Shown: in pieces, positions 5,442 to 53,129 of the stretch
Layout: each line of letters begins with the position of its first letter
How positions within the stretch are numbered: position 1 is the first letter of the stretch
Assembly (NCBI RefSeq): GCF_964020035.1
Contig: NZ_OZ026475.1
Span: 372,001-436,000, forward strand
Length of the DNA: 64,000 nt
DNA from: Spiroplasma endosymbiont of Crioceris asparagi
Lineage (GTDB): Bacteria > Bacillota_I > Bacilli_A > Mycoplasmatales > Mycoplasmataceae
Direction: 5' to 3'
Translations under genes and position numbers: made by a program
The notes under the pieces: model-generated
The model's input: only the letters and a program-made list of their open reading frames with translations
What the model was told of the DNA's origin: nothing
Database searches by the model: none

Positions 5442-5605
5442 AAAAAATTCCTTCATATTAAAATATGAAGGAACGAATAAGATATCCGCGGTACCATCCT
5501 TATTGACTAAAGCCCACTTAATTAAATATTTAGTTTTACTTTTGCAACCTTCAATAACAACGCATATTAGTTCACACCACCCACTAACTCTCTGAAAATT
5601 GTTGA
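5442..5605 (-). promoter_or_regulatory. T-box leader of valS, specifier GUU (Val)
   Basis: On the minus strand the T-box core AAGGATGGTACCGCGG (core complement at 5486-5496) pairs with the NCCA end of uncharged tRNA. It is followed by a terminator hairpin, TTCCTTCATATT/AATATGAAGGAA plus a U run (5442-5473). Upstream lie a GGTGG motif and the AGAG region (5576-5595). A GUU triplet at 5546-5548 sits 28 nt after GGTGG, the same offset at which the ileS leader has AUC, so it is the likely specifier. Uncharged tRNA-Val should favour read-through into valS. Confidence 0.9.
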
Positions 5606-5630
5606 AATTTACTCCTCAAAAACTATTTTT

Positions 5631-5652: not shown

Positions 5653-5676
5653 GATATTTTTTTTAAAAAAAATATC
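5653..5676. repeat. Perfect 24-bp A/T palindrome between divergent valS and permease promoters
   Basis: GATATTTTTTTT followed at once by its exact reverse complement, with no loop. It lies between the putative -10 boxes of the two divergent units. It could be an AT-rich UP-like element or operator. It is a poor intrinsic terminator because the stem lacks GC pairs. Confidence 0.6.
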
Positions 5677-5695
5677 ACATGGTTGTATATTTTGG

Positions 5696-5701
5696 TACAA
5701 T
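5696..5701 (+). promoter_or_regulatory. Putative -10 box of the permease transcript
   Basis: TACAAT on the plus strand, about 20 nt upstream of the purine aptamer, consistent with a start point near 5708. There is no clear -35 box. Confidence 0.4.
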
Positions 5702-5718
5702 CTTTTTAATTAAATATG

Positions 5719-5785
5719 AAAATTTATATAAGTTGATATATTGGATCGACGTTTCTACCTTGCACCTATGCATGTCTATAAATTC
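5719..5785 (+). promoter_or_regulatory. Purine riboswitch, guanine-like core with unusual P3/L3
   Basis: P1 AATTTATA (5721-5728) pairs with TATAAATT (5777-5784). J1/2 is UAA. P2 is GTTGAT/ATCGAC (5732-5737, 5745-5750). L2 is ATATTGG, and J2/3 is the canonical GUUUCUACC (5751-5759). P3 is short, with a U-U mismatch and a 4-nt loop CCTA instead of the usual 7-nt L3; its CC can still pair with the GG of L2. The ligand-specifying position 74 is C (guanine/hypoxanthine class), but the usually conserved A73 appears to be U. It precedes a purine permease. No terminator hairpin follows, so control may act on translation. Confidence 0.85.
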
Positions 5786-5823
5786 TACTTGTATTGTTTT
5801 CTATTTAATATTTTAGGAGAAAA

Positions 5824-7308
5824 ATGGAAAACACAGAATTTAAATATAGTAAGTTTAAAGCACTTACTAAAATCCAAAAGTTCTTTAAATTAGATACTTT
5901 TAACTCAACCATCAAAAAAGAAATTATTGGTGGTTTAACAACCTTTTTATCAATGGCTTACATTCTTAGTGTTGCTCCAAGCATGTTAAGTCAATCACCT
6001 TCAACATTTGGTGGTGCATCAATGAATCAACAAGGAATATTTTTATCAGTAGTGATTGCTTCATTTATTTGTACAATGATTATGGGATTATTTGCAAATA
6101 TTCCAGCCGCCCTTTCCACAAGTATGGGGTTAATGCCAATTTTTATATTCACTCTTGCAACTAAAAGTTTTGAATATCAAGGTGTTTCATCAACTGTAGG
6201 ATTTGAGGGAGCATTAATTGCATCAATGTTATCTTCAATTGCCTTCTTATTGTGCTCAATTACCCCAATTAGAGCATATGTAGTTTATGCTTTACCTAAA
6301 TCATTAAAAATTGCAATTGGGGTTTCTATTGGTTTCTTTATTGCTTACATTGGTTTAGCAGATATGGACTTTGTAGAAAAAACTGGTGGTTTACCAATTG
6401 CTAAACTAAGTAATTTAAAAAATACTTTTCCAATGATAATTTTAGGGTTTATAACTTTAGCAATTATGTTGTTTTTATATTATAAAAAAATTCCAGGTGC
6501 AACAATTATTGCAATTATGATTGGATTTGTGGGAGCATTAATTATTGCTAATTTATTTACTTTAAAAGGATCACAAATTGATGCATTTAATAATACAAAA
6601 TTTGAAAATATTAAAGATTCATTTAAACATTATTCAAATATGTTTTCTGGGTTTAAATATAATTTAAGTCAAACATATAAAGCTTTTGGACAAACTAAAA
6701 TTTGAGCAAACCCAACAATTTATATTTGTGCCTTTATGATGATGTTTTTAAACTTCTTTGATGCTACAGGAACATTAACTGCCTTTAGTATGAACTTAGA
6801 TAAAAAAACTGGTAAGCATCCCGAAATTTCTCATCGTGCATTAATTGTTGATTCAGCATCAACATTAATTGGAACAACTGCATTAGGAACATCTCCAATG
6901 GGAGTTTTCTCTGAATCATTTACTGGTTTAGAGCAAGGAGCAAGAACTGGTTTAGCTTCAGTTGTTACAGCATTGCTATTTTTAATCTCAATAATTTTTG
7001 CTCCAATTTTTACAGCCATACCACAATGTGTTACTAGTTCAGCATTAATCTTTGTTGGAATTATGATGATTGGTGGAATTAAAGATATTGAATGACAAAA
7101 AACTTCATTTATGGCAGCAAGTTTCTTTTCAATATTATTAATGATTACAACTTATTCAATCGTTAATGGAATAGCAGCCGCTGTAATAAGTTATACATTC
7201 TTAGCATGAGTAACTAAAAAAGAAGAAGAAAATGAAATGAACATATTCTTAATAATACTTTCGATAATTTTTATCATTTATTTTGTAGCTTATGCATTTA
7301 TACAATAA
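5824..7308 (+). CDS. NCS2/AzgA-type purine permease
   Basis: 494-residue permease, likely importing guanine or hypoxanthine by proton symport. The N-terminal signature GGLTTFLSMAYILSVAPSML matches the AzgA/PbuG branch (TTFLTMAYI-x2-VNP). A further motif, SPMGVFSESFTGLEQGARTG, matches the conserved TS-x-E-S-x2-G-x-GARTG segment. About 12-14 TM helices cover the whole length. Two stretches are joined by UGA-Trp codons (for example at 6703-6705). AGGAG at 5815-5819 precedes ATG 5824. The purine riboswitch upstream supports the substrate class. A strong terminator follows. Confidence 0.9.
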
Positions 7309-52848: not shown

Positions 52849-53015
52849 AACGCCCCTATAATAAAGGAGCGTTAACAACGCGGTACCATCCTTATTTACA
52901 ATAATTTATAATTGCCTTAATTAGAGTATTTACTTGTAAAAAAATAAGTGATAATTAATTATTTAGTTTACTAACTCACACCACCCGTTAGATCTCTGAA
53001 AAACTTTAATAATAA
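52849..53015 (-). promoter_or_regulatory. T-box leader of the ileS operon, specifier AUC (Ile)
   Basis: On the minus strand the T-box core AAGGATGGTACCGCG (core complement 52879-52888) is followed by terminator AACGCTCCT/AGGGGCGTT plus U run (52849-52873). GGTGG and AGAG elements lie at 52981-52998. AUC at 52950-52952, followed by A, sits 28 nt past GGTGG. It governs the small CxxC gene, ileS, lspA, rluD, pnuC and pncA, unless internal promoters exist. Confidence 0.92.
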
Positions 53016-53129
53016 TTGTGTCTTATTTATACAATATATATTATCAAATTTGCCATAATAGTTAAACACATTTTCATGTTTTATTAACTAAAATATTGTT
53101 ATAAAATAATTTTAGAGAGGTGGATTTAA

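Follow-up and report, generated by a model that had tools for sequence, protein, structure and literature searches.

A probable guanine-class purine riboswitch of short-loop form upstream of a purine permease gene in a Spiroplasma endosymbiont

Purine-binding aptamers of Mesoplasma florum with shortened loops, some of them binding guanine or adenine, were reportedly described by Kim, Roth and Breaker in 2007. This is partly corroborated by the literature: L3 has four nucleotides in 2'-dG-I riboswitches versus seven in other purine riboswitches, and in guanine riboswitches with 2'-dG-I-like loops the binding of guanine is more than 50-fold weaker (PMC8872408). As such guanine riboswitches are mentioned there, the type of RNA treated here has been discussed before. 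In the 2'-dG riboswitch of M. florum the 5' strand of the aptamer pairs with a downstream switching strand and acts on a terminator (PMC5838219). Three variant classes of purine riboswitches differ in J2/3, in J3/1 or in all three joining regions (PMC9295807). The RNA described below lacks the J2/3 and J3/1 insertions by which xanthine-II and guanine-II are recognized (PMC9295807).

The window, i.e. the whole 64-kb stretch of DNA that was analyzed, belongs to a genome of 701,400 bases in a single contig, in which TGA is read as Trp. A complete purine-riboswitch aptamer with a three-way junction is located at window positions 5721-5784 (+ strand), as established by a covariance match to RF00167 and by reading of the segments (Table 1). 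The match to the RF00167 Purine model (5704-5798, + strand) scores 46.6 bits against a gathering cut-off of 37, with an E-value of 1.2e-4 for the whole window, and is the sole Rfam match above cut-off in the window. Like guanine riboswitches of the xpt type (RF00167), the RNA combines the three-way junction with the pocket bases U22, U47, U51 and C74, the J2/3 strand GUUUCUAC, a GG in L2 facing a CC in L3, and a purine importer downstream. Unlike them, it has an L3 of four rather than the usual seven nucleotides, the L2 sequence AUAUUGG, U73 instead of the A73 of the guanine class and the Rfam consensus, a P3 of six positions with a U-U mismatch, and predicted control at the start codon versus a terminator. 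Both loops lie outside the ligand pocket, and the GG of L2 can still pair with the CC of the 4-nt L3. A fold with the usual seven nucleotides in L3 was rejected, since the covariance alignments (RF00167 and lineage model) place the 4-nt CCUA loop. The initial annotation had listed the canonical J2/3, C74, U73, the CCUA loop and the U-U mismatch, all of which are present on the + strand; its limits of the aptamer (5719-5785) and an L2 of the AUAAUGG kind required correction. For the ligand-contacting bases the profile is nearly that of a plain guanine riboswitch, an outcome which the same annotation had named as one that would speak against its own reading.

Table 1. Features of the riboswitch locus (positions in the window)
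Feature	Position	Strand	Sequence or content	Basis or remark
T-box-like leader of the upstream, divergent valS	5466-5628	-		T-box 76.3 bits against an Rfam cut-off of 93 (sub-threshold); local-search E 1.1e-16
Candidate promoter	5674-5701	+	ATCACA - 16 nt - TACAAT, TG before the -10 (extended -10)	Consensus scan only
5' strand (P strand)	5709-5722	+	AUUAAAUAUGAAAA, complementary to 5797-5809	13 bp, one bulge; its last 2 nt are the first two of P1
P1	5721-5727 / 5778-5784	+	AAUUUAU / AUAAAUU	7 perfect bp
J1/2	5728-5731	+	AUAA	Sequence
P2	5732-5737 / 5745-5750	+	GUUGAU / AUCGAC	6 bp
L2	5738-5744	+	AUAUUGG, 7 nt	Sequence
J2/3	5751-5758	+	GUUUCUAC	Sequence
P3	5759-5764 / 5769-5774	+	CUUGCA / UGCAUG	6 positions, second pair a U-U mismatch
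L3	5765-5768	+	CCUA, 4 nt	Sequence; CCNA in 53/54 short-L3 relatives
J3/1	5775-5777	+	UCU: U73, C74 (guanine specificity base), U75	Sequence
Predicted 12-bp hairpin over the start codon	5795-5833 (5795-5806 / 5822-5833)	+	UGUUUUCUAUUU / AAAUGGAAAACA	ViennaRNA, -8.5 kcal/mol
Shine-Dalgarno sequence, inside the loop of the predicted hairpin	5815-5819	+	AGGAG	Sequence
Gene presumed to be regulated, a purine permease of the NCS2 (xanthine/uracil) family	5824-7308	+	494 aa, table 4 ORF	Pfam PF00860, E 3.3e-26

The M. florum 2'-dG-I RNA, cited in the initial annotation with an L3 of CCUA and an L2 of AUAAUGG, agrees in both loops with the sequence printed in PMC5838219. With 2'-dG-I riboswitches (RF01510) the RNA shares the CCUA L3, an AUANNGG L2, the A-U pair closing L3 and, as predicted, switching by the 5' aptamer strand; unlike them, it has neither ACAG as J1/2 nor a J2/3 of GACC(C)CGC in which the U51 site is C. 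The short-loop guanine and adenine aptamers of Mesoplasma and its relatives (such as L038, L041-L045, L058, L135 and L141) also have the AUANNGG L2, a CCNA L3 and often the UCU J3/1, and share the gene families and the putative 5'-strand expression platform. Most guanine-type short-loop relatives, unlike the RNA described here, have a P3 of 6 or 7 bp without a mismatch.

The permease gene starts 39 nt after the aptamer; as a purine uptake gene it is of the kind (uptake, salvage or synthesis) that goes with the guanine class. The genes following the aptamers of relatives encode NCS2 permeases (41), BMP-family lipoproteins (24), HPRT-like proteins (14), IMP dehydrogenase-like proteins (13), GMP synthase-like proteins (7) and PurE-like proteins (5), and there is also an adenylosuccinate synthase-like group. 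These names were read from the protein sequences; that of the permease in the window comes from a family search. Permease, HPRT-like, lipoprotein and GMP synthase-like genes are common to aptamers with a UCU and with an ACU J3/1. The adenylosuccinate synthase-like group has only the adenine-type J3/1, AUU, as expected for adenine switches. An HPRT-like gene and then an NCS2 permease gene follow a UCU aptamer in G013. Apart from the leader of valS, a second T-box-like match below threshold (54 bits) was observed at window positions 52862-53033 on the - strand (G000:C1:424862-425033).

A census of purine aptamers was taken in 60 related genomes, 50 of which have RF00167 matches. Ten of the 128 family matches failed the mechanical parser and 32 more were omitted as not confidently resolved, so that 42/128 lie outside the following counts. 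Among the 66 resolved C74 aptamers, a 4-nt L3 is found in 36, U73 in 27 and both in 21. Outside genus g8 the 4-nt L3 is present in 36/40 C74 aptamers, and it is present in 18/20 adenine-type aptamers. In 53 of 54 cases this 4-nt loop reads CCUA, CCAA, CCGA or CCCA, and an L2 of AUANNGG almost always accompanies it; longer L3 loops occur mostly with AAUAUGG. The CCNA and AUANNGG loops are common to the guanine-, adenine- and 2'-dG-type aptamers of the lineage and are for this reason uninformative on the ligand. Loop type follows the lineage and the partner loop, not the ligand. U73, judged by its gene associations and its frequency, is lineage variation and not a ground for exclusion from the guanine class. 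L3 length and position 73 (A73) do genuinely depart from the Rfam consensus, yet in a way typical of the lineage. Genome G010 is that of M. florum or a very close relative, and contains the 2'-dG riboswitch known from M. florum at 100% identity. The guanine model, applied to it at E 1e-6, yielded aptamers of the adenine and dG types only; the UCU guanine type occurs in its sister species G008, G009, G012 and G013.

Three covariance models (guanine, adenine and dG-I) were built from relatives, with the target in none of them. With them the target obtains 64.8 bits for guanine (E 1.7e-14), 59.4 bits for adenine and 37.9 bits for dG-I, the last lying 27 bits under the guanine score. By the RF00167 and lineage-guanine matches alike, the aptamer is no product of chance. 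The two dG-I RNAs of the same genome obtain 82.5 and 69.0 bits with the same dG-I model, L005 being in the training set. Covariation supports the fold well: in the guanine alignment A1, with 18 relatives, 99.7% of cells are paired and 13 of 19 pairs vary on both sides, a level that no shuffle out of 500 attained, and slid versions were paired to at most 44%. Membership in the 2'-dG-I family (RF01510) was rejected on U51 in place of C at this site, on AUAA instead of ACAG in J1/2 and on the low dG-I score. The adenine class, which requires U74, was rejected on C74; the adenine-type aptamer of the same genome, L001, has an AUU J3/1. Since the pocket bases, the lineage-model scores and the purine-gene context agree, the RNA is filed in the guanine class. 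It is very probably an ordinary purine riboswitch of the guanine class, in the short-loop form, placed upstream of a purine-importer gene as a predicted translational OFF switch. The ligand would most likely be guanine (or hypoxanthine), which would pair with C74. Against this reading speak the more than 50-fold weaker guanine binding stated for guanine riboswitches with 2'-dG-I-like loops (PMC8872408) and the rarity of the P3 mismatch among short-loop relatives.

The initial annotation had seen a guanine-type core with dG-I-like loops, which is correct as a description, but fails as a sign of the ligand, the loops being the common form of the lineage. The variant-ligand or intermediate class that it derived from this was not borne out: the loops and U73 are common in relatives, the same purine genes follow, and the core changes of dG-I are absent. 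That U73 and the short loops together turn the preference towards hypoxanthine, xanthine or a G nucleoside is quite improbable. The Rfam consensus has A at position 73, and permease and HPRT-like genes would also suit hypoxanthine or xanthine; against this stand the placement of U73 and A73 forms before the same gene families, the occurrence of U73 also with L3 loops of 7 to 9 nt (genera g8 and g9), the retention of all four pocket bases and the low score with the dG-I model. Within the U73 short-loop group there is a slim chance that the pocket ceiling shifts the oxopurine preference, e.g. to hypoxanthine or xanthine.

That the RNA stands midway in evolution between guanine and 2'-dG-I riboswitches is highly improbable, because loops of this kind are general in the lineage, adenine-type aptamers included, and hence no mark of a transition, and because the target is without the core changes of dG-I. 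Such a position would be in line with the L2/L3 type that is shared with dG-I RNAs, and with the presence in the same genome of two dG-I RNAs and an adenine-type aptamer that all have a 4-nt L3. It is likewise very hard to credit that the aptamer has decayed and lost its function, as the U-U mismatch and U73 might suggest. Such a mismatch is rare among the short-loop relatives, most of which have none in P3, but the pocket bases, the seven perfect pairs of P1 and the six pairs of P2 are intact, the contact bases of L2 and L3 are kept and a full-length permease gene lies downstream. The guanine-class riboswitch remains the preferred reading. As a discovery it matters little: it adds another guanine riboswitch to a form that is common throughout the Mesoplasma-Williamsoniiplasma-Spiroplasma lineage. 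It advises caution in that neither loop length nor position 73 should be taken to indicate a new class of ligand in mollicutes, and the lineage could offer a natural series for studying the tolerance of a weaker kissing-loop contact.

Transcription of the guanine-class riboswitch would start near position 5708. The 39-nt spacer from the aptamer to the start codon was searched for a terminator-like hairpin and none was found, for which reason a translational model is preferred; many relatives do have terminator-like hairpins. In this model guanine (or hypoxanthine) would pair with C74, and its binding would stabilize P1 and keep the 5' strand (5709-5722) from 5797-5809. The latter segment would then remain in the hairpin over the AUG, and the permease would not be translated. 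Without ligand the 5' strand would pair with 5797-5809 and leave the AUG accessible. The outcome would be a translational OFF switch on purine uptake when guanine is plentiful. We infer the switching step from computed folds. With the aptamer enforced, the probability that the AUG is unpaired was 0.00-0.01; with the 5'-strand helix enforced and a start at 5708 it was 0.43-0.86 (about 0.4-0.9). The best full-leader duplex of the 5' strand was reached by 6% of shuffles and is weakly better than shuffled sequence. With a start at 5708 the computed minimum has the AUG covered even without ligand, and the ON state is therefore not the predicted ground state. The free minimum varies with the assumed transcription start: folding from 5715 omits the 5' strand and shows no switching, and from 5700-5708 the pairing of the strand appears. 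In relatives the same two regions are strongly complementary, with a mean z of -2.9 over 25 UCU loci.

Several further observations were made in the relatives. The leaders of L041-L045, L058, L101, L138, L141 and L143, from several genera, have a conserved UGUAAUUAAYAG 5' of P1, which is complementary to a downstream CUGUUAAUUACA; this pairing looks like a shared 5'-strand expression platform. Four contigs of Lachnospiraceae/Eubacteriales MAGs contain guanine-type aptamers with C74 and an ACU J3/1 (L165 3962-4056, L166 1079-1173, L167 3140-3234 and L171 7375-7469), which share a 4-nt CCNA L3 and an AUAAUGG L2, so that the short-loop form is not confined to mollicutes. The next gene after L165 encodes an FAD-dependent oxidoreductase. 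L060 (G059, genus g12) has adenine-type stems with a CCU J3/1 (C74) upstream of an NCS2 permease gene and is possibly a natural adenine-to-guanine switch at position 74. In L047/L086 (G052) the J2/3, GUCUCCAC, is guanine-like except for C at the U51 site, and J1/2 is AUAG; these aptamers are located upstream of a ribonucleotide-reductase-like gene. They are better candidates for a guanine/dG intermediate than the RNA in the window. In G008, G012 and G013 (genus g7) 8-10 matches to the 2'-dG-I model were observed per 0.8-Mb genome, several of them grouped within a few kb.
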